64,000 nucleotides of DNA from contig NZ_FOGP01000006.1 in the NCBI RefSeq assembly GCF_900111255.1, positions 1-64,000 of the forward strand. Reading direction: 5' to 3'. Source of the stretch: Parafannyhessea umbonata. Its GTDB lineage: Bacteria; Actinomycetota; Coriobacteriia; Coriobacteriales; Atopobiaceae. The first letter of the stretch is position 1, and each line of letters begins with the position of its first letter. Under the pieces are notes generated by a model that did not search any database, was not told the origin of the DNA, and saw only the letters and a list, made by a program, of their open reading frames with translations. The translations under genes were made by a program, and so were the position numbers. Below, piece after piece: positions 405 to 52,339 of this stretch.

Positions 405-1463
405 CTACGACAGCGTGATGCGCGGTCCGCCCAGGGGACGTACGACCTCGCCCACGACGTCCGCGAACGGAACGCGGCCGTCCGCTTGAAGGTCGGCCAC
501 CAGGGCATCGGCGTCGCCGGGCGCGACGGCAATCATGAGGCCGCCGGAGGTCTCTGGGCAAAAGAGCACGTCCTGCAACTCGCGCGAGACGCTTCCGACC
601 GCGACCTCGGCCTCGGCAAAGTGACGGTTGCGGTACATGCCCGCAGGCAAGATGCCCAGCTGCGCCCATTCGAGGACGTGCGGCAGCAGCTCAACCGCAC
701 CCGTCTCGAGCATGATGGCGACATCTGCGCCCTGCGCCATCTCGAGGAGATGACCCAACATGCCGAAGCCCGTGACGTCGGTCGCGGCATGGACGTCGTG
801 CTCGACCATGACGTCTCGGGCCCAGCGGTTGAGGGTCATCATGAGTCCCTCGGCACGGGTCACGTCCTCCCGATTCGCAAGGTCGCCCTTGGCGGCGGTC
901 ACCGTCTCGCCAATGCCCAGGGGCTTGGTGTAGACAAGCAGGTCCCCCGGACGAGCGCCGGAGTTGGTGAGCATGCGGGTGGGATTGACGAAACCCGTCA
1001 CGGCAAGGCCGTACTTGGGCTCGGGATCGTAGATGGAATGGCCCCCGACGATGCTGGCACCCGCCTCGAAGACCTTCTCGTAGCCGCCGCGCAGGATCTC
1101 GTGGACCACCTCGGAGGGCATGTCCTCGGGCACGGCCATGACGTTGAGCGCCACCTTGGGCTCGCCGCCCATGGCGTACACGTCGGAAAGCGCGTTGGTC
1201 GCTGCGATGGCCCCGTAGGTGTATGGGTCGTCGGCGATGGGCGGGAAGAAGTCGACGGTCTGGACGAGCGCGAGGTCGTCGGTCACGCGGTAGACCGCCG
1301 CGTCGTCGCTGCGGTCGAAGCCCACCAGAAGGTTGGGGTCCTTGCGCACGTCGAGGTCGCTCAGGAGCGCGGCCAGCTGGCCCGCCCCCACCTTCGCGCC
1401 GCAGCCGGCGCACTCGGCCAGCTTGGTCAGCTTCACGTCGTCGTGGGCACCCATCGCGCTCAC
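405..1463 (-). CDS. selD: selenide, water dikinase (selenophosphate synthetase)
   Basis: SelD makes selenophosphate from selenide and ATP. The N-terminus holds the glycine-rich loop with the catalytic cysteine (AECAGCGAKVG), here Cys rather than selenocysteine, followed by AIRS-type ATP-binding segments (DFFPPIADDPYTYGAIAATNALSDVYAMGG; GGHSIYDPEPKYGLAVTG, each quoted only as landmarks). At 352 residues it is the usual length. The GTG at 1463 follows GGAAAGG with 5-nt spacing; an ATG three codons inside (1454) is an alternative. It closes the yedF-desulfurase-DUF3343-selD operon. No selA, selB or selC is present in the window, which fits a role in the selenium cofactor of molybdenum hydroxylases rather than selenocysteine, but the rest of the genome is unseen. 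Confidence 0.95.
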   Translation of the reverse strand: MSAMGAHDDVKLTKLAECAGCGAKVGAGQLAALLSDLDVRKDPNLLVGFDRSDDAAVYRVTDDLALVQTVDFFPPIADDPYTYGAIAATNALSDVYAMGGEPKVALNVMAVPEDMPSEVVHEILRGGYEKVFEAGASIVGGHSIYDPEPKYGLAVTGFVNPTRMLTNSGARPGDLLVYTKPLGIGETVTAAKGDLANREDVTRAEGLMMTLNRWARDVMVEHDVHAATDVTGFGMLGHLLEMAQGADVAIMLETGAVELLPHVLEWAQLGILPAGMYRNRHFAEAEVAVGSVSRELQDVLFCPETSGGLMIAVAPGDADALVADLQADGRVPFADVVGEVVRPLGGPRITLS

Positions 1464-1518: not shown

Positions 1519-1755
1519 TCAGAGTTCCAGATCGTACACGCCGGCGAACGAGAAGCGTCCAGGGGCGAGCTCCTCGAACGCCTCCCGCTCCTCGGGTGGC
1601 ATGGACCACGCGAGCCCGCAGTCAGCGCGGATGGCGGTGGGCGTCGGGATAATCCTTCCGAGCACGCCGGCCTCCCTGCAGCAGCGCTCGCACTCGAGCG
1701 CCTCGTGCGTCGAATCGAACGCGGCGACCGCGCGGCGCCTCAGCCTACGCGCCAT
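1519..1755 (-). CDS. DUF3343 small protein, putative Se/S carrier
   Basis: A 78-residue protein starting MARRLRRRAVAAFDSTHEAL at the ATG at 1755, overlapping the last 11 nt of the desulfurase gene, which implies translational coupling. It has the DUF3343 pattern: an early ECERCC cysteine cluster (about residues 20-25), a central PTPTAIRADCGLAW segment and a short acidic C-terminus. DUF3343 proteins occur beside selD and EF2568-type desulfurases in genomes with selenium-dependent molybdenum hydroxylases, and a carrier role for selenium or sulfur has been proposed; that role is an inference here. The vicinal cysteines would suit persulfide or selenopersulfide handling. Confidence 0.8.
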   Translation of the reverse strand: MARRLRRRAVAAFDSTHEALECERCCREAGVLGRIIPTPTAIRADCGLAWSMPPEEREAFEELAPGRFSFAGVYDLEL

Positions 1756-2953
1756 GGGCCTCGTCCCCCTCGTCGGACTCGTCCTCCGAAGCCAGCTCCC
1801 CCAGCGCGCGCAGTGCCAGGTCGACTTCGTCGGCCGTGGTGTGGTAGCCAAACGAGAAGCGAACGGCCCCCGTGTCCTGCGTCCCGAGTGCGCGGTGCAT
1901 CCTGGGCGCGCAGTGGCCGCCGGCACGCACGGCAATGTCGTAGTCCTCGTCCAGCGCCGCAGCGAGCGAGGCGGAGTCCCATCCCTCGAGGTTGACGGAG
2001 ACGACGGGCGCATGGTCACGCCCGCAGTCGGAGCCGTCCAGCAGGGCCAGGTCCGACGGGAAGCTGCCATAGACGCGCACGGCGGGAATCGAGCGACAGC
2101 CCCCGACGAACCGGCGCACGAGCGCGAGGTCGTGGGTGTGAATGTCATGGAGGCCCTCGGACCACACGAAGTCGGCCGCGGCGGAAAGCCCCGCGATCCC
2201 GTGACCGTTGAGCGTACCGGCCTCAAGGCGCTCCGGGAATGCCTCGGGCATGCCCTCCTCGAAGGACAGCACGCCCGTACCGCCAGACAGGAGCGGCTCC
2301 ACGTCGGCGCCGGGCGCCACCAGCAGGCCACCGGTCCCCTGCGGCCCCATCAGGGCCTTGTGCCCCGTGAAGGCCAACAGGTCGATGCCCAGCTCGTCCA
2401 TGCTGATGGGACGTGCCCCGGCGGTCTGCGACGCGTCGAGAAGGACGAGCGCGCCGGCGTCGTGGGCCGCCTCAACGAAGCGGCGGACGTCGGCCACGTT
2501 GCCCGTCAGGTTCGAGGCGTGGGTGCATGCCACCAGACGCGTTCCGGGCGTCACGAGCCTGTCCAAGGCGTCGTAGTCAAGCCGGCCGCAGGCGTCGGCG
2601 GGGACAAAGTCGACCCGTACGGATGAGCGCTCGGCAAGGTAGTGGAGCGGACGCAGGATGGAGTTGTGGTCCCAGTCCGTCGCCACCACATGGTCGCCCG
2701 CACGGACGACGCCCGCGATGGCCATGTTCAAGGCCATGGTGGCGTTCTGGGCGAAGACGACGCGCTCGGGATGCGAGAACCCCAGCACGCGCGCCACGCG
2801 CTCGCGGGCCAGCATGACCGTGCGCGCAGCGTCGAGCTCGCCGCGGGCGGCACCGCGCCCCGTGCTCCCCAGGGAGCGCAGGGCGGAGGTGACGGCGTCC
2901 ACGACGCAGTCAGGATGCCAGTATGAGGTCGCCGCGCAGTTGAGGTACGTCAT
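1745..2953 (-). CDS. EF2568-type cysteine desulfurase/selenocysteine lyase-like aminotransferase class V
   Basis: A 402-residue PLP enzyme of the IscS/SufS fold. The PLP lysine is visible in FTGHKALMGPQGTGG (about residue 195-209) and a catalytic-loop cysteine in RAGGHCAPRMHR near residue 340. The family member found next to selD and the Se-hydroxylase genes (EF2568 type) is thought to mobilise selenium or sulfur for cofactor assembly. It follows yedF by 43 nt and overlaps the DUF3343 gene by 11 nt. The acidic tail (EDESDEGDEAHGA) is unusual. Substrate preference (cysteine or selenocysteine) cannot be told from sequence. Confidence 0.88.
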   Translation of the reverse strand: MTYLNCAATSYWHPDCVVDAVTSALRSLGSTGRGAARGELDAARTVMLARERVARVLGFSHPERVVFAQNATMALNMAIAGVVRAGDHVVATDWDHNSILRPLHYLAERSSVRVDFVPADACGRLDYDALDRLVTPGTRLVACTHASNLTGNVADVRRFVEAAHDAGALVLLDASQTAGARPISMDELGIDLLAFTGHKALMGPQGTGGLLVAPGADVEPLLSGGTGVLSFEEGMPEAFPERLEAGTLNGHGIAGLSAAADFVWSEGLHDIHTHDLALVRRFVGGCRSIPAVRVYGSFPSDLALLDGSDCGRDHAPVVSVNLEGWDSASLAAALDEDYDIAVRAGGHCAPRMHRALGTQDTGAVRFSFGYHTTADEVDLALRALGELASEDESDEGDEAHGA

Positions 2954-2996: not shown

Positions 2997-3611
2997 CTAG
3001 AGGACGCTCACGCCGGGATTGCTCGAGAGGATCTGCGCGATGGCGTAGAGGTTGGTGACGCCACCGACCGCGAGCTTCTCGCGCAGGCCGTAGAAGTCGA
3101 GGCAGGTGCCGCAGGTCAGGATTTCGGTGCCGCGGGCCTCGAGTTCCTTGATGTCCTCGAGCGACTCGGAGCCCTCGCAGGTGAGCGACGCGCCGCCGTT
3201 GTAGAAGAGCATCGTCTTGGGCACGCTCTCCTGGTGGGCCAGGGCGTAGATGAGCCCCTTCATGAGGATGTGGCCCAGCTCGGCATCGCCGCGGCCCATG
3301 GCGTCGGAGTCGACCGCGATGACGGCCGCGGTGGTCGCGGGAAGCTCGCAGTAGGCGGACGCCTCCTCCTCGGCTGAAGCGGTGGAGGCGGTGGCGTTCT
3401 CGCCGGGGGTGAACGTAAGGACGGACTCGTCGCCACTCTTCTGGACCTCGAGGTCGATGCCCTTGCCCTGCGCGAGGCGGGTGAGGTTGCCCAGCGCGAC
3501 GGAGTCGTTGACGGTGACCTTGAGGGACTCGCCGGCGGGTAGCTTGGCCAGGGCCTCGAGGGTCATGACGACGGGCTTGGGGCAGGTAACGTTGCGTGCG
3601 TCGATCTCCAT
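2997..3611 (-). CDS. yedF: selenium metabolism protein YedF (TusA-like + DsrE-like)
   Basis: The 204-residue product has a TusA/SirA-like N-terminal domain with the CPxP motif (NVTCPKPVVMTLEAL, residues 7-21) and a C-terminal DsrE/DsrF-like domain with cysteines in SLTCEGSE and ILTCGTCLDF. This two-domain architecture defines the YedF selenium metabolism family, which co-occurs with selD. The ATG at 3611 is chosen because AAGGGAAAGG stands upstream; longer in-frame starts lack a binding site. It opens the yedF-desulfurase-DUF3343-selD operon, with a 19-bp palindrome about 100 nt upstream. Confidence 0.9.
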   Translation of the reverse strand: MEIDARNVTCPKPVVMTLEALAKLPAGESLKVTVNDSVALGNLTRLAQGKGIDLEVQKSGDESVLTFTPGENATASTASAEEEASAYCELPATTAAVIAVDSDAMGRGDAELGHILMKGLIYALAHQESVPKTMLFYNGGASLTCEGSESLEDIKELEARGTEILTCGTCLDFYGLREKLAVGGVTNLYAIAQILSSNPGVSVL

Positions 3612-3708
3612 TGGTGATGCCTTTCCCTTGTGCGAGGCGCCGCCGCCGGGTGGGTGCCCAGGCGACGGACGCCAGCAGGTCGTTTCTCTGCATTCGATTG
3701 TATATCTT

Positions 3709-3727
3709 GCCAAACTTTCTGTTTGGC
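3709..3727. promoter_or_regulatory. perfect 7-5-7 palindrome upstream of yedF
   Basis: GCCAAAC-TTTCT-GTTTGGC is a perfect inverted repeat 98-116 nt upstream of the yedF start. It is the best copy of a motif that recurs in front of other selenium and purine operons in this window. A TATACAAT-like -10 candidate lies just downstream on the minus strand (about 3698-3705), so the palindrome would cover the -35 region. Operator function is inferred. Confidence 0.6.
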
Positions 3728-3788: not shown

Positions 3789-5081
3789 CTACAGCATCTC
3801 GAGGAAGGCCTCGATGCGGGTCTTGAGCTGGCCCTCGTCGTCGGCGGAATAGCCCGTCGATATGTGCATGTAGGGAATTCCCGCGTCGCGCGCCGCGAGC
3901 TCCATCCCCGTCGCCTCCATGTCGTACAGCGTACAGAACTGCAGAGAGCAGTCGATGATGCCGTCGGCGTTAAGCTCGCGGGCCATCCTCAGGACGTCCT
4001 CCTTGCGGCCGTCGTTGGGGGTGAAGATGGCGCACTGGATGTTGAGGTAGCGGTCGGCGATGTCGTTGAGCATGTCATCAATGGTCGCGCCGTCCTCGGG
4101 AACGAGGTCCTTGTAGTAGCGGCTGCCGGTGCAGCACTCCTCGCCGACCACGACGGCGCCGCTCTTCTCGATGATGTTGAAGAGCTTCCAGTTGGGCACC
4201 GCCATCGGCGTGCCGGTGTAGAGGATGCGCTTGGCACCCTTGGGGGCCACGCCCTCCCCCGCCTCGACGCGGGCCTCGCACTCCTGGGCCATGTCGTTGA
4301 TGGCGCCGGTCAGGCGCACGGAGTCGTCCATGAACGCCGCCTGTATGGTGAGTAGACAGTCAAGGCCGCTGATGGGAACGGGGTCGGCGGCACGGGTCTG
4401 GTCTAGGCGCTTGAGGGCGAGGCGCTTCTGGTTGGCGAGCTTGATGGCCGCACGCAGGGACTCCTCGGTGATCTTCTGGCCGGTGAGCTCCTCGATGCGC
4501 CCCGCCAGGCGCTTGACCTCGTTGCGCCACTGCTGGCGCGTGTCCTCGTTGCGGACGTGGGGAACGTCCATCACGAAGGTGTCCTTGAGCTTGCCGAACT
4601 CCTCGTAGGCCTTCTTCTTGCCGTCGCAGGTGTTCTCGCCCACGACGAGGTCGGCGGTCTCGATGTAGGGGCAGACGCTCGCGAGCTTGAAGCCCATGAA
4701 GCCCTTGATCAGCGGGCAGGTGTTGCGCGGAACGAGCTTCTCGGCCTCCTCGGGCGCCCACTCGGCGCCGGCACAGAGCCCGACCTCGACCGCGCCCGCG
4801 GCGCTGATGATCTCTTCGGGAACGTAGAGGCAAAACGAGCCCACGACCTTCCTGGGATCGCCGGCCTCGCGGCCCTCCACGAGCTCGCGAATGCGGCCCG
4901 AGTGGATGTTGCTCGCCACGAAGTCGAGGTACGAGGTCGACTTGGGGCGGTTTCCCTGCGTGAGGAACATGTCCCCATACATCTGCCCGACGGCCGCAAG
5001 GAGGCCGTCGTGCGCCTCGACGTCCATGCCGAGGCTCCCCCACATCTCGCGATAGTCGTACTCTTCCTGACCTGCCATCAT
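3789..5081 (-). CDS. 2-hydroxyacyl-CoA dehydratase family / double-cubane-cluster reductase-like protein
   Basis: About 430 residues related to HgdB/BcrC (COG1775). Cysteines that could ligate Fe-S clusters appear in SFCLYVPEE, VGLCAGAEW, RNTCPLIKGFMG, ASVCPYIE, GENTCDGKKK and GEECCTGSRYY, the pattern of single-subunit double-cubane-cluster proteins such as E. coli YjiM. Those proteins accept low-potential electrons from an ATP-driven activase and reduce small molecules. The start is the ATG at 5081 or 5078, both after GGAGAGGAG. It is divergent from the activase at 5226, its expected partner. The substrate is unknown; linkage to selenium genes suggests a role in the Se or purine pathway, but this is inference. 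Confidence 0.8.
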   Translation of the reverse strand: MMAGQEEYDYREMWGSLGMDVEAHDGLLAAVGQMYGDMFLTQGNRPKSTSYLDFVASNIHSGRIRELVEGREAGDPRKVVGSFCLYVPEEIISAAGAVEVGLCAGAEWAPEEAEKLVPRNTCPLIKGFMGFKLASVCPYIETADLVVGENTCDGKKKAYEEFGKLKDTFVMDVPHVRNEDTRQQWRNEVKRLAGRIEELTGQKITEESLRAAIKLANQKRLALKRLDQTRAADPVPISGLDCLLTIQAAFMDDSVRLTGAINDMAQECEARVEAGEGVAPKGAKRILYTGTPMAVPNWKLFNIIEKSGAVVVGEECCTGSRYYKDLVPEDGATIDDMLNDIADRYLNIQCAIFTPNDGRKEDVLRMARELNADGIIDCSLQFCTLYDMEATGMELAARDAGIPYMHISTGYSADDEGQLKTRIEAFLEML

Positions 5082-5225
5082 GGCTCCTCTCCGTTGCGTC
5101 ATGACGTTCTGCATTATTCTTGCGAAAATATAACGATTAGCTGCATTGATACAGCAATGCAGAAACTATACTAATTCGTTGTAAGTGTAACTAACTATTA
5201 ATTAGGTAACCGGAGGCAACGCCCT
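5082..5225. promoter_or_regulatory. divergent promoter region with two inverted repeats
   Basis: This AT-rich 144-nt gap separates the reductase and activase genes. It contains a perfect 8-bp inverted repeat, CTGCATTG (5141-5148) and CAATGCAG (5155-5162) with a 6-nt spacer, placed midway and well suited to control both directions. A second, imperfect palindrome AACTAAC-TATTA-ATTAGGT lies at 5189-5207, 19-37 nt before the activase ATG, and resembles the GCCWAAC-N5-GTTWGGC motif seen elsewhere. An ATATAACG half-site (5127-5134) resembles ModE-type half-sites. Confidence 0.5.
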
Positions 5226-6005
5226 ATGAGCGGTACGCAGACAGGCGAGAAGGACGCAGGCATCGGGGCCGTAGGAATCGACGTGGGCTCAACCGCCACC
5301 AAAGCCGCGGTGGTGCAGTGGGGAGAAGTGACCCACACCCTGGTCGTGCCGACGGGCTTCTCGGGCGTGGACGCGGCATGGCGCGTGCGCAAGGAGCTCG
5401 CCGCGCAAGGCGTGCCCGTAGACGAGCTCCCCGTGGTGGCGACGGGATACGGCCGCGTCTCGGTGCCCTTCGCGGGCAAGACCCTGACCGAGATCACCTG
5501 CCATGGCCGCGGGGCCGCATGGCTGTTCGCTCCCGACGGCACCGTGATCGACATCGGCGGCCAGGACACCAAGGTCATCGAGCTGAGGGCAGGGCGCGTG
5601 TGCGACTTCGCCATGAACGACAAGTGCTCCGCGGGGACGGGCAAGTTCCTCGAGGTCATGGCAACGCGCATGGGCGTCGCCATGGACGAGCTGTTCGAGC
5701 TCGCTGCCCAAGGCGAGGGCGCCCAGATATCGAGCGTCTGCACGGTCTTCGCGGAGTCAGAGGTGATCTCGATGATCGGCCGCGGCGAGCCGAGGCAGAA
5801 CATCGCCCACGGCGTGGTCGAGTCCGTCGTGGCGCGCGTGGTGTCGCTCGCCGGCAAACGCGCGGGCGGAAGCTGCTTCCTGACGGGCGGCCTCTGTGGC
5901 GAGCCCTACCTGGTCGAGCGTCTCTCGCAGCGCCTGGGCACACAGGTCGCCACCTGCAAGCAGGCGCGATTCGCCGGGGCCATCGGCGCGGCCCTGCTCG
6001 CCTAG
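5226..6005 (+). CDS. acyl-CoA dehydratase activase / ATP-dependent electron-transfer activator (HgdC/YjiL type)
   Basis: A 259-residue ASKHA-fold ATPase: phosphate-1 loop GIDVGSTATKAAVV near residue 16, phosphate-2 loop IDIGGQDTKVIEL near 112, and cysteines in NDKCSAGTGKFLE (about 134) and SSVCTVFAESEVIS (about 173) that in this family hold a [4Fe-4S] cluster at the dimer interface. It uses ATP hydrolysis to deliver low-potential electrons to an HgdB-type partner, here the divergent gene at 3789-5081. Length is typical. CGGAGG precedes the ATG at 5226. It converges on mogA with a 35-nt GC-rich gap. Confidence 0.92.
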   Translation: MSGTQTGEKDAGIGAVGIDVGSTATKAAVVQWGEVTHTLVVPTGFSGVDAAWRVRKELAAQGVPVDELPVVATGYGRVSVPFAGKTLTEITCHGRGAAWLFAPDGTVIDIGGQDTKVIELRAGRVCDFAMNDKCSAGTGKFLEVMATRMGVAMDELFELAAQGEGAQISSVCTVFAESEVISMIGRGEPRQNIAHGVVESVVARVVSLAGKRAGGSCFLTGGLCGEPYLVERLSQRLGTQVATCKQARFAGAIGAALLA

Positions 6006-13782: not shown

Positions 13783-14628
13783 CTAGCGGGAACGTGCGAC
13801 GTCGGCATCGCCCTCGAGGCGCCGCGAGAAGCGCAGGATGGCCTCGAGCACGCCGCCGCCGATGGAGTGGGCCTTGTCCGAGACGGTGAAGCAGTGGCCC
13901 ACCTTGCCGCGCGGGTCGATGTCGCCGGACTTCATGTTCTTCGTAACGTGGCAGCCCCTCTGCAAGAGGCCGCGCAGCACGCCGTCGATGGTCGCGTAGA
14001 GCGGCTCTCCGGCGACCGTGGCGACAAGGTCGCCCTTCTTGACCACGTCGCCGATCTTTGCGACGGGCTCGAACAGGCCGTCGGCGGGCGCGCGCAGCAC
14101 GCGCTCGGTCGAGAAGCCGCCAATGTTGCCGGGGACTCCGGTGTTGGGGATGGCCGAGCCGTCCAGAATCACGCGACCCAGGTAATGGCCGCGCTTGGTC
14201 TCGACAACCGCGTCGCAGTCGGCGCTGGAGCTCGTCCCCGCATGGAAGCCCGGGCCCACGCCGATGACGATGGGTGCCATGTCCTTGGTGGTGCCCAGGT
14301 TGACCTTGGCGAGAATGGCGTCGACCACGACCTCGGGACGGAGCCGTGAAATGCAGGAACCCTCGGGGTCGACAAGCACGGCGATGTCCTTCTTGCCATT
14401 TGCATCCCCACGAGCCACGCGAAGGGCCTCGTCCGCGCCGCGGCAGAGCACGCCCCGGACGCCCTCGACCGTGGCCTCGCCCAGGCGCACGGCCTCGCTG
14501 AAGCACACGGTGCGCCTGACGGAGGTGGGCTCCGCGACGTCGGTCATGACGATGTCGGCCCCGGCACTGTGGAGGCGCACGGCGATGCCAGAGGCCAGAT
14601 CGCCCGCGCCACGAATCACGATCAGCAT
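13783..14628 (-). CDS. yqeB: selenium-dependent molybdenum hydroxylase system protein YqeB
   Basis: The 281-residue protein starts with a Rossmann-like VIRGAGDLASGIAVRLHSAG and contains AILAKVNLGTTKDMAP and IGVGPGFHAG, the landmarks of the YqeB family that defines selenium-dependent molybdenum hydroxylase genomes. Its exact reaction is not known; it is thought to act in selenium cofactor assembly. GAGAAGG precedes the ATG at 14628. It leads the yqeB-XdhC-like pair and is divergent from yqeC. Confidence 0.93.
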   Translation of the reverse strand: MLIVIRGAGDLASGIAVRLHSAGADIVMTDVAEPTSVRRTVCFSEAVRLGEATVEGVRGVLCRGADEALRVARGDANGKKDIAVLVDPEGSCISRLRPEVVVDAILAKVNLGTTKDMAPIVIGVGPGFHAGTSSSADCDAVVETKRGHYLGRVILDGSAIPNTGVPGNIGGFSTERVLRAPADGLFEPVAKIGDVVKKGDLVATVAGEPLYATIDGVLRGLLQRGCHVTKNMKSGDIDPRGKVGHCFTVSDKAHSIGGGVLEAILRFSRRLEGDADVARSR

Positions 14629-16480: not shown

Positions 16481-19045
16481 CTAGTTCTTGCGATACGGCG
16501 TGTGGGCTATCGGCAGGCTCTGGCGGAACTCGCCGTCAAGGCGATAGTACGCGCCCGCGCAGGCCGGTGCCGTGGGAATCATGCACAGCTCGCCGCAGCC
16601 CTTGGCGCCCAGCGAGAACGGCAGCCTGTCCTTCTTGTCCGGCTTGCACAGGATGACCTCGAGCTCCGGCGCGTCAGTCGCGCGAATGAAGCCGATGGTG
16701 CCGAACTTGCTCTTCGGCAGGCCGTCCACGCACTCGAACTTCTCGGTCACGCCGTAGCCGATGCCCATGACCATGCCGCCCTCGATCTGCCCCTCGACGG
16801 ACTGGACGTTGACGGGCGTGCCGACATCGAAGGCCGAGACCGCCTTCTTGATGCGGCGCGTCTCCTCGTCGAGGATGATCAGCTGGGTTCCATAGGAGTA
16901 GCTCACGTGGCTGATGGGGTTGTCCTTGATTGCGCCCAGGGGGTCGGTCTTCGCGGAGTACTCGCCGAAGAACTCCTGTCCCTCGAGGTCGGCCACGGTC
17001 TTCCCGCCCTCGAGCGCGCACTTGAGCTTCTCGCCCACGCGACGCGCGGCCTCGCCGGTGACGACGGTCTGACGCGAGGCGGTCGAGGTGCCCGAGTCGG
17101 GCGTGCGGATGGTGTCGGGGTCCTCGTAGACGAACAGTGCCGGGTCGAGGTGCGTGACGTGGCAGATCTCGGTCAGCACCATCTGGCCGATGCCCTGCCC
17201 CATGCATGCCGCGGAGGTGCGGATGTGGATCTTGCCCTGCTCGACGCTGAGCAGCACGCGGCCGATGTCCATCTTGCCCATGCCCGTGCCTGAGTTCTTG
17301 AAGCCGCAGGCGATGCCGACGCAGGGGTTCGCGTAGTACTCGTCGCGCACGGCGTCGAGCGTCGCCTCGAAGTTGGTGTCGGGCTCTGCGATCTGGCCGT
17401 TGGGCAGGCGGTCGCCCGGCTTGATGCAGTTGCGGCGGCGGATCTCCCACGGGTCGATGCCCACCATCTCGGCGAGGAGGTTGATGTTCATCTCGGTCGC
17501 GAAGCAGCTCTGCGCCGCCCCGAAGCCGCGGAAGGCTCCGGACACCACGTTGTTGGTGTAGACCGACATACCAAAGATGTCGAGATTCTGGTAGTTGTAG
17601 GGGCCGGCCGCATGGGTGCAGGCGCGCTCGAGGACGGGGCCGCCCAGAGACGCATAGGCGCCCGTATCGGCAATGATGACGCCCTTCATGGCGGTGAGCT
17701 TGCCGTTCTCGTCACACGCGGTGGTGAACTCCATCTCCATGGGATGGCGCTTGACGTGGTAGTCGAGCGACTCCTGGCGCGTGTACTTCACCTTGACCGG
17801 GCGCTTGAGCACCCAGGCCATGAGCGCTGCGTAGGGCTGGACCGACATGTCCTCCTTACCGCCGAAGCCGCCACCGACCAGCGGCTGGTGGCAGTGGACC
17901 TTCTTGGGGTCGAGCTGCAGCATCTTGGCGCACTCGCGACGCACGTCGTAGATGGACTGGCAGGTCGAATAGATAAGAAGCCCGTCGCCCTCGGGCATGG
18001 CAAGGCAGCTCTCCGGTTCCATGAAGCCGTGCTCCTGCCATCCCGTCTTGTACTTGCGCGTGACGACGTACTTGGAGTTGCGGATGGCCTCGTCGGCATT
18101 GCCGCGCTTGAGGCTCGCGCGGCTCATCACGTTGCCGTCCTCGTGGATCATCGGGGCGTCGCCGCGGAGTGCGTCAAAGGGGTTGGTGACGGCGGGAAGC
18201 TCGGTGTAGTCAACCTCGACCAGCTTGACGAGCTCATCGAGGGCGTCCTTGTTCTCGGACGCGACGACGGCGATGACGTTGCCGACGTACTTGGTGACGT
18301 CGCCCTCGCCCATCATGACGTCCCAGTCCTGCTTGATGTGGCCGATGACGTTGCAGGGAACGTCCTTCTTGGTCAGCACGCGTAGGCAGTCAGGGTGCGC
18401 CTCGGCGCGGCTCACGTCGACCCTCTCGATACGTGCGCGCGGGTACTTCGAGAAAACGCACTTTGCAAAGACCATGCCCTCGGGACGCAGGTCGTCGACG
18501 AACTTGCCGGTGCCGTTGACCTTGCTCACGGCGTCGATGCGCTTGGCGTGCTGGTCCATCTCGAGCGTCTTGGGCGCGGGCGGAATCTCCTTGTGCTCGC
18601 GGAAGAACTCGGCCGCCATGAGGATGGCGTTCTCGATCTTGGCATAGCCGGTGCAGCGGCAGAGGTTGCCGCGGATGGCCTTCTTGACGTCCTCGCGCGT
18701 CGGGTTGAGGTCGACGTCGAGCAGGCTCTTGGCCGAGATGATCATGCCGGGGATGCAGAAGCCACACTGGACGGCGCCCGCCTCGGCAAAGCAGTGCTCG
18801 TAGACGCGCATCTCGTCGGCGGGTATGCCCTCGACGGTAACGACGTGCTTGCCCTCGAGCCTGCTGAGCCTCGCGGTGCAGGCCTTGGTCTTCTTGCCGT
18901 CCACCAGCACCGTGCACGTGCCGCAGACGCCCTCGCTGCAGCCGTCCTTTGCCGCCGTCAGGCCCAGGTCCTCGCGCAGGAAGCTCAGCAGTTGCTTGTC
19001 CTCCTCGCAGCTGTATTCCTTACCGTTAACGAACAACGTGTGCAT
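16481..19045 (-). CDS. fused [2Fe-2S]-molybdenum hydroxylase, selenium-dependent xanthine dehydrogenase type
   Basis: An 854-residue fusion. Residues 1-160 form a two-cluster ferredoxin domain (CSEGVCGTCTVLVDG.KTKAC; CGFCIPGM; LCRCTGY). Residues about 170-854 are the Mo-binding domains with GGGFGGKEDMSVQPYAAL, GAFRGFGAAQSCF, SAACMGQGIGQM and the catalytic-glutamate loop LGAKGCGELCMIPTAP near 823. No FAD domain is fused; the neighbouring FAD subunit (19124-19942) may serve it. This layout matches the selenium-dependent xanthine dehydrogenase family that co-occurs with YqeB/YqeC. GAAGGAG precedes the ATG. Xanthine, purine or nicotinate-like heterocycles are possible substrates; context favours purines. 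Confidence 0.9.
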   Translation of the reverse strand: MHTLFVNGKEYSCEEDKQLLSFLREDLGLTAAKDGCSEGVCGTCTVLVDGKKTKACTARLSRLEGKHVVTVEGIPADEMRVYEHCFAEAGAVQCGFCIPGMIISAKSLLDVDLNPTREDVKKAIRGNLCRCTGYAKIENAILMAAEFFREHKEIPPAPKTLEMDQHAKRIDAVSKVNGTGKFVDDLRPEGMVFAKCVFSKYPRARIERVDVSRAEAHPDCLRVLTKKDVPCNVIGHIKQDWDVMMGEGDVTKYVGNVIAVVASENKDALDELVKLVEVDYTELPAVTNPFDALRGDAPMIHEDGNVMSRASLKRGNADEAIRNSKYVVTRKYKTGWQEHGFMEPESCLAMPEGDGLLIYSTCQSIYDVRRECAKMLQLDPKKVHCHQPLVGGGFGGKEDMSVQPYAALMAWVLKRPVKVKYTRQESLDYHVKRHPMEMEFTTACDENGKLTAMKGVIIADTGAYASLGGPVLERACTHAAGPYNYQNLDIFGMSVYTNNVVSGAFRGFGAAQSCFATEMNINLLAEMVGIDPWEIRRRNCIKPGDRLPNGQIAEPDTNFEATLDAVRDEYYANPCVGIACGFKNSGTGMGKMDIGRVLLSVEQGKIHIRTSAACMGQGIGQMVLTEICHVTHLDPALFVYEDPDTIRTPDSGTSTASRQTVVTGEAARRVGEKLKCALEGGKTVADLEGQEFFGEYSAKTDPLGAIKDNPISHVSYSYGTQLIILDEETRRIKKAVSAFDVGTPVNVQSVEGQIEGGMVMGIGYGVTEKFECVDGLPKSKFGTIGFIRATDAPELEVILCKPDKKDRLPFSLGAKGCGELCMIPTAPACAGAYYRLDGEFRQSLPIAHTPYRKN

Positions 19046-45903: not shown

Positions 45904-48690
45904 TTATCGCGAATACGGAGTGTCACGCAGGGGCAACGACTCACGCACAAAGCCATCGAGGCGATGGTAGGCGTTCTGCACCGCAGGCGCGGTACCGATC
46001 GTCGCGATCTCGCCTATGCCCTTGCCACCGTACGCCACGGGAAGGAGATGGTCCTTCTCGACGTAGATCGCATGGATCTGGGGAATGTCGGTCGAGCGCA
46101 GAAGCCCGAGCGTACCGTACTTTGCCTGAGGGACGCAGTCCTTGAGCGGGAAGTCCTCCGTAAGCGCATAGCCCATGCCCATGAGCACGCCGCCCTCGAT
46201 CTGGCCCTGGATGGCGATGGGGTTGACCACCTTGCCGGCGTCGTGGGCCGCGTGGATCTCGCGAATCCTCCCGCGGTCGGGGCCGTCCGGCTCGAGCACG
46301 ACCACCGTGGAGCTGAATCCGTAGCAGATGTGGCTCTTGGGGTTGGGCAGGTCGGCACCCAGCTTGTCGGTCGGCTCGAAGTACTCGTAGCCGAACTCGC
46401 AGCCCTCGAGCGCGCGCAGGGCCGCGACGGGGTCCTTCGGGTGCACGCCATGGCCCGCAATCAGGGCGCTTCCGTCGGCGTAGCCCACCCCGTCGTAAGG
46501 GGTGCCGTCACCGTACTCGATGGCCTTGCCATCGCCGCGGGCAAAGACGCGCTGCGCGGGGACGCCGTTTCCCGCCTCGACGGAGAGCATGGCGTCGCGC
46601 AGCAGGAAGGCCACTCCGCGCACGGCCTCGCCGGTCACGACGGTCTGGCGCGAGCCGCTGGTCGTGCCGGAGTCGGGGGCGTTCTCGGTCGAGCACTCGC
46701 CGTTGGCGATCGCGTAGCGCGGAAGGCCCGTGGCCTCTGCGACGTCCTGAAGGAAGACGGTGTTGCAGCCCTGGCCGATGTCGGAGGTGGCGCTGTAGAC
46801 CACCGCACGGCCGTCCTCGACGCGGATGTTGGCGCGACCTGCGTCGGGCAGGCCCACGCCGACGCCAGCGTTCTTCATGGCGCAGGCTATGCCGCAATGG
46901 CTGCTGTTCTTTTCGAACACGTCCTTTACGGCGAGCAGGGTCTCCTTGAGGGCGGTCGAGCAGTCCGCGATCTGGCCGTTAGGCAGGACCTTGCCGGGCT
47001 CGATGGCGTTGCGCCAGCGGATCTCCCAGGGGCTGATGCCCACCTTGTCGGCCAGAAGGTCGATGCAGCCCTCGAGCGCGAACTCGCTCTGGCACACGCC
47101 GAAGCCGCGGAACGCGCCCGCGGGCGGGTTGTTGGTGTAGTAGCCGAAGCCACGGATGTCGGTGTTCTGGTAGGTGTAGGGGCCGACCGCATGCGTGCAG
47201 GCGCGCTCCAGGACGGGCCCGCACAGGCTGGCATAGGCGCCCGTGTCGAAGTTGATTTCGCAGTCCAGGCCGGTAATGATGCCGTCCTCGTCGCACGCCA
47301 GCGTGAAGGTCGCGTCCATGGCGTGGCGCTTGGGATGGAAGAGGATCGACTCCTGGCGCGTGAACTTGCACTTCACCGTGCGCCCGAAGTGCAGGGCCGC
47401 CAGCGCTGCAAGGTGTTGGGTCGAAACGTCCTCCTTGCCGCCGAAGCCCCCGCCGACCAGCATGGTCTCGACCACGACTCGCTCGGGCTCCTGGTCCCAG
47501 CCCAGCATGTGGGCGACCTCCTTGCGCGTGTCGTAGGCGCCCTGGTCGGTGGACTGAATCTTGACGCCGCCCTTGTACGGGAACGCGACGGCGCACTCGG
47601 GCTCCAGGAAGGCGTGCTCGGTGAAGGGAGTCTCGAAGTGCTGCGTCACCACATAGGGCGAGTTGGCGATGGCCTCCTTCGCGTTGCCGCGCGTGACGTG
47701 ACGACTCTGGCAGACGTTGTCCTCCAATATCACGTGGTTGCCGAAGGCGTTGAAGCTCTCGTGCACCTGCGGGGCGCCCTCCGCCCTGGCCTCCTCGATG
47801 TTGCGGACGGGCTCGAGCTCCTCATAGGAGATCCTGACGAGCTTCTTGGCCTTGGCGAGCACGGACTCGCTCTCGGCCACCACCAGGCAGATGGCGTCGC
47901 CAACGCAGCGCGTAATGTCGCCCTCTGCGATCATGACGTCCCAGTCCTGAATGAGGTGGCCCACCTGGTTGACGGGCACGTCCTTGGCGGTCAGCACGCC
48001 CAGCACGCCCGGCAGCGCCTCGGCCTTCGAGGCATCGATGGACAGCACGCGCGCTCGCGGGTACTTGGAGCGCACCGCCGAGGCGAAGGCCATGTCGGGG
48101 TAGTTCTCCCTCGTCAGGTCGTCCGGGTAGACGCCCTGGCCCAGCACCTTGCGGCGCACGTCGACGCGGAAGGCCCTCTGGCCCACACCATAGTTCTCGC
48201 CGCGCTCGAGGTCGGGCTCGATGTTGCGTTCCCCGCGCAGAATCGCCGCGGCGAGCATGATGCCCTCGATGATCTTCTTGTAGCCGGTGCAGCGGCAGAC
48301 GTTGCCGCGGATGGCGTACTTGACCTCCTCCTCGGAGGGGTCCGGGTTCTGGCGCACGAGAGCCGCGCCGCTCATGACCATGCCGGGGATGCAGAAGCCG
48401 CACTGGACCGCGCCGACGGAGCCGAAGGCGTAGACGAAGGCCTCCCTCTCGTCCTCGCTCAGGCCCTCGATCGTGAGCACCTGCCTGCCCTGGGCAAGCT
48501 TGGTGGTCATGACGCAGCCCTTGGTGGCGATGCCGTCGATCACGACGGTGCAGGTTCCGCAGGCGCCCTCGGAGCAGCCGTCCTTGACGGAGGTCAGTCC
48601 CAGGTCGTCGCGCAGGTAGCGGAGAAGAGACTTGTTCTCCGTGGTTGTGTGCTCTTCTCCGTTGACGAAGAAGCTGTAGCTTGCTGACAT
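45904..48690 (-). CDS. fused [2Fe-2S]-molybdenum hydroxylase, XdhD-like
   Basis: 928 residues. Residues 1-160 carry both ferredoxin clusters (CSEGACGTCTVVIDG.ATKGC; CGFCIPGMVMSG; VCRCTGYKK). Residues ~180-928 are Mo domains: LVGGGFGGKEDVSTQHLAAL, AGAFRGFGVCQSEFALEG, TSDIGQGCNTVFLQDVAE and the catalytic-glutamate loop YGGKGIGEIATIGTAPAVQNAY near 886-907. In E. coli XdhD (956 residues) is likewise encoded beside ssnA and ygfK. It lies 16 nt after the ferredoxin gene in the ssnA-ygfK-ferredoxin-xdhD-like operon. Hypoxanthine/xanthine to urate-level chemistry is plausible, not proven. Confidence 0.9.
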   Translation of the reverse strand: MSASYSFFVNGEEHTTTENKSLLRYLRDDLGLTSVKDGCSEGACGTCTVVIDGIATKGCVMTTKLAQGRQVLTIEGLSEDEREAFVYAFGSVGAVQCGFCIPGMVMSGAALVRQNPDPSEEEVKYAIRGNVCRCTGYKKIIEGIMLAAAILRGERNIEPDLERGENYGVGQRAFRVDVRRKVLGQGVYPDDLTRENYPDMAFASAVRSKYPRARVLSIDASKAEALPGVLGVLTAKDVPVNQVGHLIQDWDVMIAEGDITRCVGDAICLVVAESESVLAKAKKLVRISYEELEPVRNIEEARAEGAPQVHESFNAFGNHVILEDNVCQSRHVTRGNAKEAIANSPYVVTQHFETPFTEHAFLEPECAVAFPYKGGVKIQSTDQGAYDTRKEVAHMLGWDQEPERVVVETMLVGGGFGGKEDVSTQHLAALAALHFGRTVKCKFTRQESILFHPKRHAMDATFTLACDEDGIITGLDCEINFDTGAYASLCGPVLERACTHAVGPYTYQNTDIRGFGYYTNNPPAGAFRGFGVCQSEFALEGCIDLLADKVGISPWEIRWRNAIEPGKVLPNGQIADCSTALKETLLAVKDVFEKNSSHCGIACAMKNAGVGVGLPDAGRANIRVEDGRAVVYSATSDIGQGCNTVFLQDVAEATGLPRYAIANGECSTENAPDSGTTSGSRQTVVTGEAVRGVAFLLRDAMLSVEAGNGVPAQRVFARGDGKAIEYGDGTPYDGVGYADGSALIAGHGVHPKDPVAALRALEGCEFGYEYFEPTDKLGADLPNPKSHICYGFSSTVVVLEPDGPDRGRIREIHAAHDAGKVVNPIAIQGQIEGGVLMGMGYALTEDFPLKDCVPQAKYGTLGLLRSTDIPQIHAIYVEKDHLLPVAYGGKGIGEIATIGTAPAVQNAYHRLDGFVRESLPLRDTPYSR

Positions 48691-48706
48691 GTCCCTCACT
48701 CCCCTC

Positions 48707-49330: not shown

Positions 49331-52300
49331 TTACCTCTCGAACAGGTAGGGATGCTCGTCGCGCGTCGCGACGATGGTCAGGCGGACCGCCTTGGGGAGG
49401 CCGCAGGCGGGATTGTCCACGTCGTAGGTGGCGACCTCTCCGTTCAGGCGCACGAGGTACTCACTGCCCTCGACCTCGCCCACCGGCAGGAAGCCGGAGT
49501 TGTGCGAGGAGTCGAAGTCCTCTCTGGTCCAGAACAGCGTGAGCTTGTCGCGGAAGGGCCTGCCGCCCTCGTAGGGGCAGAACACGGCGCAGTTGCCGCA
49601 CTCGTTGCACATGCCGTCGACGTGCACCACCTGGCGCTGGCGCAGGCCGGGCACGCGGACCGCGACGTTGGCGCGGTTGGGGCAGACCTCGCAGCAGGTC
49701 TCGCAGGCCGTGGCGCAGCCGAGGCAGCGCGACTTGACCAGGCTCTCGACCTCCTGGGTGAGCGTGGCGCGCCCGGCGAGCGGGCGATCGTAGTCGGCCT
49801 CGATGTTGCTCGCGGAGCAGAAGTCGAAGTCGTATCCGCACAGCGCCTCGGTGACAGTCGCGGCGTCGGCGATGGCCTTCACCACCGTGGCGGGGCCACG
49901 GCGGCAATCGCCGACCGCGTAGACGTGGGCGACGCTGGTCTGGAGCGTGTCGTCGACCTCGGGCAAGCCCCTCTGGTCGAGCAACACGCCGGAGGCCTTG
50001 TAGACGGAGGGCTCTACGCGCTCCCCCACCGCGGCGATGACGGAGGTCGCGACGACCTCGCGGGTCTCGCCCGTGGGCTCGGGCCTGCGGCGGCCGGACG
50101 CGTCAGGCTCGCCCAGCCTCATGACATCGCATGTCAGCGTGGTGCCCTCAAGCGCCTTGGGCGAGAGGAGCTCCAGGAACTCGACCCCGTCCTCAAGCGC
50201 GAGCGCGAGCTCCTCCTCGTCGGCGGGCATGTTGCGACGGTCGCGGCGGTAGACCAGGCGCACGTTCTTGACGCCCGGCACGCGCTTGGCGGCGCGGGCC
50301 ACGTCCATGGCGGTGTTGCCGGCGCCGACCACGGCCACGTCGGTGCCCAGCATGCAAGAGGCGGGATCCGCCTTGAACTGCTGCAGGAACTCAAGGGCAT
50401 CGAGCATCTGAGCACCCTCGATCACGGGGTGGCCGGGCGCCCATGCGCCGATGGCCACTACCACGTCGGTGAAGCCCTTCTCCAGGAGGTCCTGTGCGCT
50501 CCTGACGTCTGTGCCGAGCTCGAACTTGGCGCCGTAGGCGCGGCAGAGCTCGATGTCGTTCGCGATGGACTCGGCTGCGATGCGGAAGTCGGGAATCACG
50601 TTGGCGACCACGCCGCCGAGCGTCTTCTGGCGCTCGAACACGGTCACGTCGACGCCAGCGCGCGAGAGGAACGAGGCCACGGAGAGCCCGGCCGGGCCGC
50701 CTCCGATGACGGCAACCTTCTTGCCCTCGACCGCGGGTGCGGCCTCGAGCTCGGGCAGGACCTCGGCGAGGCCCCTGCGTGCGGCCTCGAGCTTGAACTC
50801 GCGGATGTGCACATGTTCCTCGTAGTAGTTGCGCATGCAGCTGATGCCGCAGGTGTGCGGGCAGATGGTTCCGGTGATGAAGGGCAGCGCGTTGCGCTGG
50901 AGGACGATGCTGAGCGCGTCGGCGAAGCGGCCCTCCTCGACGGCCCTGAGGTAGCCGGGAATGTCCTGGTGGATGGGGCAGTCGTGGCGGCAGGGCGCAG
51001 TGAAGCAGTCCATCAGGGGGAGCCTCTGGTCGATGTGGCGGGAAGGCACGGGCTTGATGGGCTTCTTGTAGCGGGCGTTCTGGTGCATGTCCTCGACGAG
51101 CGCGTCGACCGCAGCCACGCGCACGCCGTCAAAGCGGTAGCAGTCTTGCTGCGCGAAGGCGTAGGCGATCTGCGAGAAGCGCTCGTAGCCACCCGGCTTG
51201 AGCACCGTGGTCGCCATGGTCACGGGCCAGATGCCTGCGTCGACCAGGCCGCGGATGTTGAGGGCGTCGGCACCGCCGGACCACGAGATGCGGAGCTTGC
51301 CGTCGAACTCGTGGCTAATGCGCTGGGCAAGCGTGAGCGTGAGCGTATAGAGCGAGCGGCCGGACATGTACATTTCCTCGCTCGGGAGCTCACCGCGGGT
51401 CACGTCGACCGGGAAGGTGTTGGTGAGCTTAACGCCGAACTCGAGCCCACGCTCCCGGCAGAGGGCCGCCAAGCGCTGGAACATAGGGACCGCGTCAGCC
51501 CACTGCAGGTCCTCGTCGAAGTGGTGGCGGTCGAAGACGATGTAGGAGAAGCCCAGGGAGTCGAGCAGGCCGCGGGCGGTCTCATAGCCCAATAGGGTCG
51601 GGTTGCACTTGATGTAGGTGTTGAGGCCCTTCTCGCAGATGAGGTGCGTGGCGATGCGCTCGATCTCGTCGGGCGGGCAGCCGTGCAGCGTCGACTCGGT
51701 GATGGACTCCGAGACGTGCGGGGTGATCGAGTCGACGAATGTCTCGTCGACGTTGTTGAAGCGGTCGAGGTTGGCCTTCGCCCACGCGATGGCCTCGTTG
51801 AACGCCACCGTGCCAGAGGCGTCCTTCAGGTCGTTGATGAAGCCGTCGACCTTAGGGGTCTTGATGCCCTCCAGGTCGTAGCCGACCGACATGTTGAAGA
51901 CGAAGCCGTCGGGGTCGCCCAGGCCAAGCTCGCGGGCGAGCAGCTTGCAGGCCACCCAGGCGTGTATGTACTCGTCGCGGGCGTCGGCCACGGTCAGCTC
52001 GGTCGACCACTCGCAGTTGTAGCCCTCGTCGCCCGCAAGGATGCAGGGCTTGTTGACGCAGGCGGCAAGCTCTTCTCCGTCCATCTTCTGGACGGTCTTG
52101 AGCTCGAAGAAGCGCGCGCCGGCCACATAGGAGGCCACGAGGTTCTGGGCCAGCTGCGTGTTGGGGCCCGCAGCAGGGCCGAAGGGCGTCTCGAGGCGCC
52201 CGTTGAAGATGGGGCGGGCGCTGCCGGGGTCGCGCCGGGGCATGCGGGAAATGCCGAAGATGGTTCCCCTGGTGTGGTACTCGCTCAGGATCCAGTCCAT

Positions 52301-52339
52301 GAGCTGGTCAAAGGGCATGGGATGCATAACGTCGCTCAT
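49331..52339 (-). CDS. ygfK: YgfK, flavin/Fe-S oxidoreductase ('putative selenate reductase')
   Basis: 1002 residues (E. coli YgfK ~1030). Residues ~1-420 form a dihydropyrimidine/dihydroorotate-dehydrogenase-like barrel (ETPFGPAAGPNTQLAQN; STLHGCPPDEIERIA; YIKCNPTLLG; GVKLTNTFPV). Then a GltD-like module: Fe-S cysteines CFTAPCRHDCPIHQDIPGY and CPHTCGISC, FAD site VAVIGGGPAGLSVASFLSRAG (~559) and NAD(P)H site VAVVGAGNTAMDVARAA (~670). The C-terminus has CLGCATACETCCEVCPN and CNECGNCAVFCPYEGG clusters. The layout resembles NADPH-dependent dihydropyrimidine dehydrogenase and suits reductive attack on an oxidised purine/urate ring. That substrate is an inference; selenate is an old label. Confidence 0.92.
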   Translation of the reverse strand: MSDVMHPMPFDQLMDWILSEYHTRGTIFGISRMPRRDPGSARPIFNGRLETPFGPAAGPNTQLAQNLVASYVAGARFFELKTVQKMDGEELAACVNKPCILAGDEGYNCEWSTELTVADARDEYIHAWVACKLLARELGLGDPDGFVFNMSVGYDLEGIKTPKVDGFINDLKDASGTVAFNEAIAWAKANLDRFNNVDETFVDSITPHVSESITESTLHGCPPDEIERIATHLICEKGLNTYIKCNPTLLGYETARGLLDSLGFSYIVFDRHHFDEDLQWADAVPMFQRLAALCRERGLEFGVKLTNTFPVDVTRGELPSEEMYMSGRSLYTLTLTLAQRISHEFDGKLRISWSGGADALNIRGLVDAGIWPVTMATTVLKPGGYERFSQIAYAFAQQDCYRFDGVRVAAVDALVEDMHQNARYKKPIKPVPSRHIDQRLPLMDCFTAPCRHDCPIHQDIPGYLRAVEEGRFADALSIVLQRNALPFITGTICPHTCGISCMRNYYEEHVHIREFKLEAARRGLAEVLPELEAAPAVEGKKVAVIGGGPAGLSVASFLSRAGVDVTVFERQKTLGGVVANVIPDFRIAAESIANDIELCRAYGAKFELGTDVRSAQDLLEKGFTDVVVAIGAWAPGHPVIEGAQMLDALEFLQQFKADPASCMLGTDVAVVGAGNTAMDVARAAKRVPGVKNVRLVYRRDRRNMPADEEELALALEDGVEFLELLSPKALEGTTLTCDVMRLGEPDASGRRRPEPTGETREVVATSVIAAVGERVEPSVYKASGVLLDQRGLPEVDDTLQTSVAHVYAVGDCRRGPATVVKAIADAATVTEALCGYDFDFCSASNIEADYDRPLAGRATLTQEVESLVKSRCLGCATACETCCEVCPNRANVAVRVPGLRQRQVVHVDGMCNECGNCAVFCPYEGGRPFRDKLTLFWTREDFDSSHNSGFLPVGEVEGSEYLVRLNGEVATYDVDNPACGLPKAVRLTIVATRDEHPYLFER

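Follow-up and report, generated by a model that had tools for sequence, protein, structure and literature searches.

A double-cubane cluster protein and its activase are tied to selenium genes in Parafannyhessea umbonata and other Coriobacteriales

The double-cubane cluster protein (DCCP) encoded beside the selenium genes of Parafannyhessea umbonata is a member of an already known protein family, and the distribution and genomic position of this family tie it to selenium genes, a conclusion that we hold with high confidence. The role of the protein and its ATP-dependent activase is proposed more tentatively: we favour an accessory reductase of selenium assimilation, reducing selenium species to selenide for the selenophosphate synthetase SelD, and give this a little less than an even chance. 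The pair and its control region are located as follows within the window, i.e. the whole stretch of 64,000 nucleotides that was analysed.

3789 to 5114, minus strand: DCCP, double-cubane-cluster-containing anaerobic reductase (NF040772, phmmer, AF2/Foldseek, cysteines)
5226 to 6005, plus strand: ATP-dependent activase of the BadF/HgdC type, DCCP-reductase-like, divergent from DCCP (TIGR00241, PF01869)
5082 to 5225, no strand: shared intergenic region between the likely start codons, 144 bp, 41% G+C
5141 to 5162, no strand: perfect 8-bp inverted repeat with a 6-bp spacer, CTGCATTG-6-CAATGCAG, possible operator

The original prediction had described an HgdB/YjiM-type protein and a divergent activase at this locus, and both genes are present. 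Against the curated NCBIfam equivalog NF040772 (double_cubane), DCCP scored 464.3 bits with a cut-off of 350, and a phmmer search of solved structures returned 7yyl/6eno at 7.1e-130, the DCCP of Carboxydothermus hydrogenoformans being the closest solved relative. The AF2 model (pLDDT 91.3, with residues 1-15 disordered) was matched by Foldseek to 6eno with TM scores of 0.93/0.97 and an rmsd of 1.4 Å over ~420 residues at 48% identity. Cysteines 95, 114, 133, 163, 328, 361 and 394 are found in 100% of the DCCPs compared and Cys148 in 98%, and from family membership the window protein is predicted to carry an [8Fe-9S] double-cubane cluster. The open reading frame encodes 441 amino acids; judged from the sequence, the ATG at 5081, preceded by GGAGAGGAG, is a likelier start than 5114 and would give a protein of 430 amino acids. 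The likeness to the C. hydrogenoformans DCCP:DCCP-R system (6eno, 7yyl, 7yzm; NF040772) thus extends to the fold, the conserved cysteines and the BadF-type activase partner, but the window differs in the divergent orientation of its activase and in the setting of the pair, next to a selenium cassette within a urate island.

The activase scored 224.9 bits against TIGR00241 (acyl-CoA dehydratase activase, cut-off 125.4) and 174.9 bits against PF01869, its solved relatives include HgdC (1hux) and DCCP-R (7yyl_E), and the cysteine motifs CSAGTGKF and SVCTVFAESE are both there. An activase gene is found within 7 kb of 99 of the 129 DCCP genes. The perfect 8-bp inverted repeat that had been predicted in the shared control region was confirmed to be exact and lies about midway in the 144 bp. 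An 8-bp arm occurs in 2.7% of shuffles of this AT-rich region (P about 0.027) and in 19 of 443 window tiles, the genome holds no further perfect copy, and the repeat was looked for in the orthologues, where it is absent and hence not conserved. A role as a regulon site was dropped on these grounds; the repeat is weak evidence, and may be a local operator. A search of the control region for a sigma-70 promoter or a terminator found neither.

Two other motifs were observed in or near such regions. The heptamer CTGCATT is found at 3688, 5109, 5141, 5156, 12527 and 14350, six copies in 64 kb with a chance mean of 5.4; five of the six are intergenic, upstream of YedF, DCCP/activase and ModA, and are possibly half-sites of a selenium/molybdenum regulator. 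A conserved palindrome, ACCGTTAT-N-ATAACGGT, stands just upstream of DCCP in orthologues from urate clusters (L035:2391, L036:9855, L039:4141, L040:9855, L045:9919), where it adjoins a conserved short opposite-strand open reading frame with no assigned family; the palindrome was sought in the window and is absent.

On the same strand as DCCP, a run of selenium genes follows in the order YedF, SclA-like protein, Se/S carrier and SelD.

2997 to 3713, minus strand: YedF, sulfurtransferase-like selenium metabolism protein (TIGR03527 188.2 bits, cut-off 110; PF01206)
1745 to 2953, minus strand: SclA/EF2568-like PLP protein, selenocysteine-lyase/cysteine-desulfurase-like (TIGR01977, NF040779)
1519 to 1755, minus strand: putative Se/S carrier, DUF3343, 78 amino acids (PF11823 66.7 bits, cut-off 25)
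405 to 1463, minus strand: SelD selenophosphate synthetase (TIGR00476 383.2 bits, cut-off 125)

The profile scores of YedF and SelD bear out the earlier statement that the pair adjoins yedF-selD, and with the carrier the window encodes the selenium supply cassette of SelD, YedF and carrier. The carrier gene, which the original prediction had missed, overlaps the stop codon of the SclA-like gene; the SclA-like protein itself scored below the cut-off for both TIGR01977 (369.1 bits, cut-off 377) and NF040779 SclA (335.7 bits, cut-off 525). For YedF the ATG at 3611 is the more likely start, which would leave a gap of ~177 bp after DCCP, so that yedF could have a promoter of its own; a single transcript from DCCP through to SelD is plausible. 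The DCCP-YedF gap also holds a 7-bp perfect inverted repeat (GCCAAAC-5-GTTTGGC, 3709-3727), possibly part of a yedF operator or promoter region. The window SelD gene has no in-frame TGA. Many SelD genes of Coriobacteriales, and of a second phylum that we surveyed (that of G274, a Geobacter-like genome), contain one in-frame TGA, as expected of a selenocysteine-containing SelD.

The association between DCCP and selenium genes was surveyed in 274 genomes of the order Coriobacteriales, each at least 90% complete, DCCP being counted above the NF040772 cut-off. DCCP was found in 97 genomes, selD in 156 and yqeB in 101. The phylogenetic association with selenium genes on which the original prediction hinged is present: 96 of the 97 DCCP genomes carry selD, against DCCP in 1 of the 118 selD-negative genomes (Fisher 1e-30). 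Shared ancestry inflates p-values drawn from genome counts and we therefore counted within genera as well; in the 16 genera with both selD-positive and selD-negative members, DCCP was present in 62 of the 89 former and 1 of the 41 latter, and at the level of whole genera 33 have both DCCP and selD, 35 have neither, 21 have selD only and 0 have DCCP only. YedF follows selD almost perfectly (154 genomes with both). One exception, the MAG G089, has DCCP and lacks selD, yedF and yqeB. Conversely, 60 of the 156 selD-positive genomes lack DCCP, which marks it as optional and not required for selenium use.

The survey that had been proposed covered yqeB and yqeC together with selD; its selD part stood, and a specific link to yqeB/yqeC was not supported. 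Among genomes with selD, the presence of DCCP does not depend on that of yqeB (65 DCCP genomes with and 31 without it, vs 36 with and 24 without among those lacking DCCP; p=0.39), and the yqeB-specific signal, gone once selD was accounted for, was rejected. This independence argues for a tie to selenium use at large rather than to the molybdenum hydroxylases specifically. Six selD-negative genomes of one genus (G047, G048, G050, G053, G054, G056) encode divergent DCCP-like proteins of 306-323 bits. These homologues form a separate long branch and the three examined (L156, L157, L160) lack Cys148; being sub-threshold as well, they were not counted as DCCPs. Even when they are counted, 96 selD-positive genomes stand against 7 selD-negative ones (p=2e-23).

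Gene position gives a second line of evidence. In Coriobacteriales, selD is no more than 12 kb away from 78 of 130 DCCP genes, and among 81 distinct DCCP loci, inspected over a 7 kb range, 54 have one or more of YedF, SclA-like protein, carrier and SelD, 39 have three or more, and 64 have an activase. In the second phylum selD is nearly universal (139 of 148 genomes), which makes co-occurrence uninformative there, and a positional test was used instead with the sub-threshold, dehydratase-type HGD-D homologues of the same genome set as control: 12 of 55 DCCP genes were found within 12 kb of selD, compared with 0 of 88 control genes (p=5e-6). Three DCCP genomes of this phylum are without selD. 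Two of them carry SelB above the cut-off, so their missing selD probably reflects assembly gaps; the third, G370, shows no selD above cut-off and only a sub-threshold SelB match. One clostridial record contains DCCP, activase and selD together, and some DCCPs adjoin glycine/betaine reductase operons, which are likewise selenium-dependent. At six loci (L046, L048, L057, L059, L060, L067) DCCP is near betaine/glycine reductase genes, an SLAC1/TDT-type transporter and a C_GCAxxG_C_C redox protein.

FastTree, a fast method, was used to build a tree of 129 sequences, on which the selenium-context label changes at least 25 times and is found in both deep clades, indicating that the association was gained or retained repeatedly. 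Thirteen Atopobiaceae sequences make up the subclade of the window DCCP; the other 12 are all in urate clusters, adjoining xdhABC, ygeX, ygfK or ssnA, and this favours some urate link for DCCP. In these urate-cluster orthologues selD is in the same region, about 15-45 kb off, where both genes are on one contig. In the nearest relative (L062, 84%) DCCP adjoins YgfK and YgeX, whereas the window DCCP adjoins YedF; the two gene orders fit one role, the supply of selenium to urate hydroxylases.

The rest of the annotated window (to 54 kb) contains molybdenum-cofactor and molybdate-transport-type genes, YqeB, two Se-dependent xanthine dehydrogenases and XdhA, together with guanine deaminase, an HyuA-like hydantoinase, YgeW, YgeY, YgeX, YgfK and SsnA, and from this gene content it is a reductive urate island, with the following main features.

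13783 to 14628, minus strand: YqeB, selenium-dependent molybdenum hydroxylase maturation (TIGR03309 341.9 bits, cut-off 220)
16481 to 19045, minus strand: Se-dependent xanthine dehydrogenase, first copy, likely selenium consumer (TIGR03311 1220.7 bits)
45904 to 48699, minus strand: Se-dependent xanthine dehydrogenase, second copy (TIGR03311 1137.6 bits)
49331 to 52339, minus strand: YgfK, flavin reductase of the reductive urate pathway (TIGR03315 1280.6 bits; role PMC12507026)
52397 to 53752, minus strand: SsnA amidohydrolase of the urate pathway (NF005540 602.3 bits)

One of the two xanthine dehydrogenases is near YqeB and the other near YgfK/SsnA; the latter (45904-48699) is a candidate XdhD-type urate dehydroxylase. 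A profile search of the organism's own genome gave no SelA above the cut-off, and for SelB only sub-cut-off matches of the kind expected from other elongation factors. With selA and selB absent, selenium in this Atopobiaceae genome probably serves molybdenum hydroxylases only.

In light of these data, the proposed route is as follows. The activase dimer would take a low-potential electron, at the level of ferredoxin or flavodoxin, hydrolyse ATP and hand that electron on to DCCP, whose [8Fe-9S] double-cubane cluster would receive it. DCCP would then reduce a selenium species, either oxidised or bound to protein, to the selenide that SelD uses as its substrate. Candidates for this species are Se(0) or perselenide delivered by the SclA-like lyase and held on YedF or the Se/S carrier, or selenite. 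In this genome the only destination of selenophosphate would be the labile selenium that molybdenum hydroxylases of the urate/purine island carry. The cluster and the transfer of electrons, as well as the identity of the selenium substrate and the direction in which electrons flow, are what we infer for the pair. Chalcogen chemistry has a precedent in the superfamily, a 4-thiouridine-monophosphate desulfidase with a [4Fe-5S] cluster (PMC11971306). A more specific form of the proposal, in which the pair is a dedicated ATP-driven selenium reductase whose selenide is passed on to SelD by YedF and the Se/S carrier, is possible, though we consider the odds to be against it. Counted against a role in selenium assimilation are the optional nature of DCCP, the exceptions G370 and G089, the closest orthologues standing among urate genes, and the narrow range of in vitro substrates described for a DCCP, which are only small molecules (acetylene, azide and hydrazine among them; PMC11971306).

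Four other explanations were weighed. The pair might instead be a reductive activator or repair system for the Se-molybdenum hydroxylases, glycine/betaine reductases or other selenoenzymes, with no part in selenide supply; ATP-driven low-potential electrons are typical of activators, and DCCP does adjoin three kinds of selenium locus (Se-hydroxylase/urate clusters, Grd operons and the selD cassette), but the genes found with it most often are those of upstream supply (YedF, SclA-like protein, carrier and SelD), and the 31 DCCP genomes with selD noted above have no yqeB, which marks one selenoenzyme type. We regard this role as unlikely.

That DCCP acts as a reductase of the purine/urate pathway, on a purine or a pathway intermediate, appears more doubtful again. 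The urate island of the window and the urate clusters of its subclade speak for it; however, the known reductive steps are carried out by XdhD and YgfK (PMC12507026), the latter encoded here. In E. coli, YgfK and SsnA reduce and open the purine ring, YgfK dearomatising the purine core, and the characterised enzyme set comprises XdhD, YgfK, SsnA, HyuA, YgeW/UacY, YgeY and YgeX, with no mention of DCCP-type proteins (PMC12507026); the E. coli pathway, in its characterised form, leaves out that organism's own DCCP homologue, YjiM. In the window this set is encoded separately from DCCP, XdhD being represented by the candidate Se-dependent hydroxylases. The same 31 genomes combine DCCP and selD without yqeB, and 36 combine selD and yqeB without DCCP. 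Urate ring reduction, which the original prediction had offered beside selenium chemistry, is thus not supported.

We consider it improbable, to a slightly greater degree, that the pair scavenges or detoxifies a selenium compound (methyl-selenide, selenite or selenate) with no strict coupling to SelD. DCCP and its reductase are among the selenium genes of type-1 mlp clusters, for which methyl-selenide recycling was proposed (PMC10418091), and SLAC1/TDT-type transporter and C_GCAxxG_C_C genes stand beside some DCCPs; yet those clusters combine DCCP/DCCPR with corrinoid methyltransferases, no mlp-type methyltransferase was identified in the annotated part of the window, and the neighbours of the window DCCP are SelD and putative carriers.

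Finally, that DCCP is a component of a classical 2-hydroxyacyl-CoA dehydratase or a benzoyl-CoA reductase is close to refuted, in line with the original prediction, which had argued against a classical dehydratase: it has in common with these enzymes the superfamily (PF06050) and fold and the activase type, and BzdN also has an [8Fe-9S] cluster (PMC11971306), but HadC (2-hydroxyisocaproyl-CoA dehydratase) and BzdN are two-subunit enzymes of CoA esters that match the model at ~3 Å with 21-22% identity, vs 48% for the known DCCP, the scores stay far under the cut-offs for HadC (99.6 bits, cut-off 700), BzdN (78.8, cut-off 453.8) and BcrC (72.8, cut-off 421.15), DCCP is the sole HGD-D-family match in the whole genome (E≤0.001) and so lacks a partner subunit, and the genes beside it in the annotated window are selenium, molybdenum-cofactor and purine genes, with none of acyl-CoA metabolism.

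The function of archetypal DCCPs was stated to be unknown in a 2025 paper (PMC11971306), and a 2023 preprint "provisionally linked" DCCP to selenium metabolism (PMC10418091). In Slackia heliotrinireducens, Lin et al. (2015) recorded a "2-hydroxyglutaryl-CoA dehydratase subunit" and a "CoA-substrate-specific enzyme activase" as STRING partners of YedE, YedF, LysR_Se and DUF3343 (PMC5322559, Table 1); the two were listed without comment and the former was not recognised as a DCCP. A YjiM/YjiL-type pair on a Klebsiella plasmid (NZ_OP378649, L052) has DCCP, activase and a DUF3343 Se/S carrier in one run, as in the window, but its DCCP is of the other deep clade, at about 41% identity, and the plasmid is without selD. 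What is new here is the quantified association of DCCP with selenium, with controls, and its independence from yqeB, as well as the complete cassette including the carrier and a DCCP in the urate island of a genome without selA and selB.

Archetypal DCCPs have a solved structure and an odd in vitro chemistry, and their repeated tie to selenium supply narrows the substrates worth assaying to a few; as the natural job of the family, selenium handling is at present the best guess. If the pair is indeed a dedicated selenium reductase, this would be the first physiological role for an archetypal DCCP and would mean that cells spend ATP on electrons of very low potential in order to capture selenium. 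Since the organism appears to lack selenocysteine machinery and probably reserves selenium for hydroxylases of the xanthine/urate type, the pair would also connect the supply of selenium with the degradation of purines in gut-type bacteria, which is linked to urate levels in the host.
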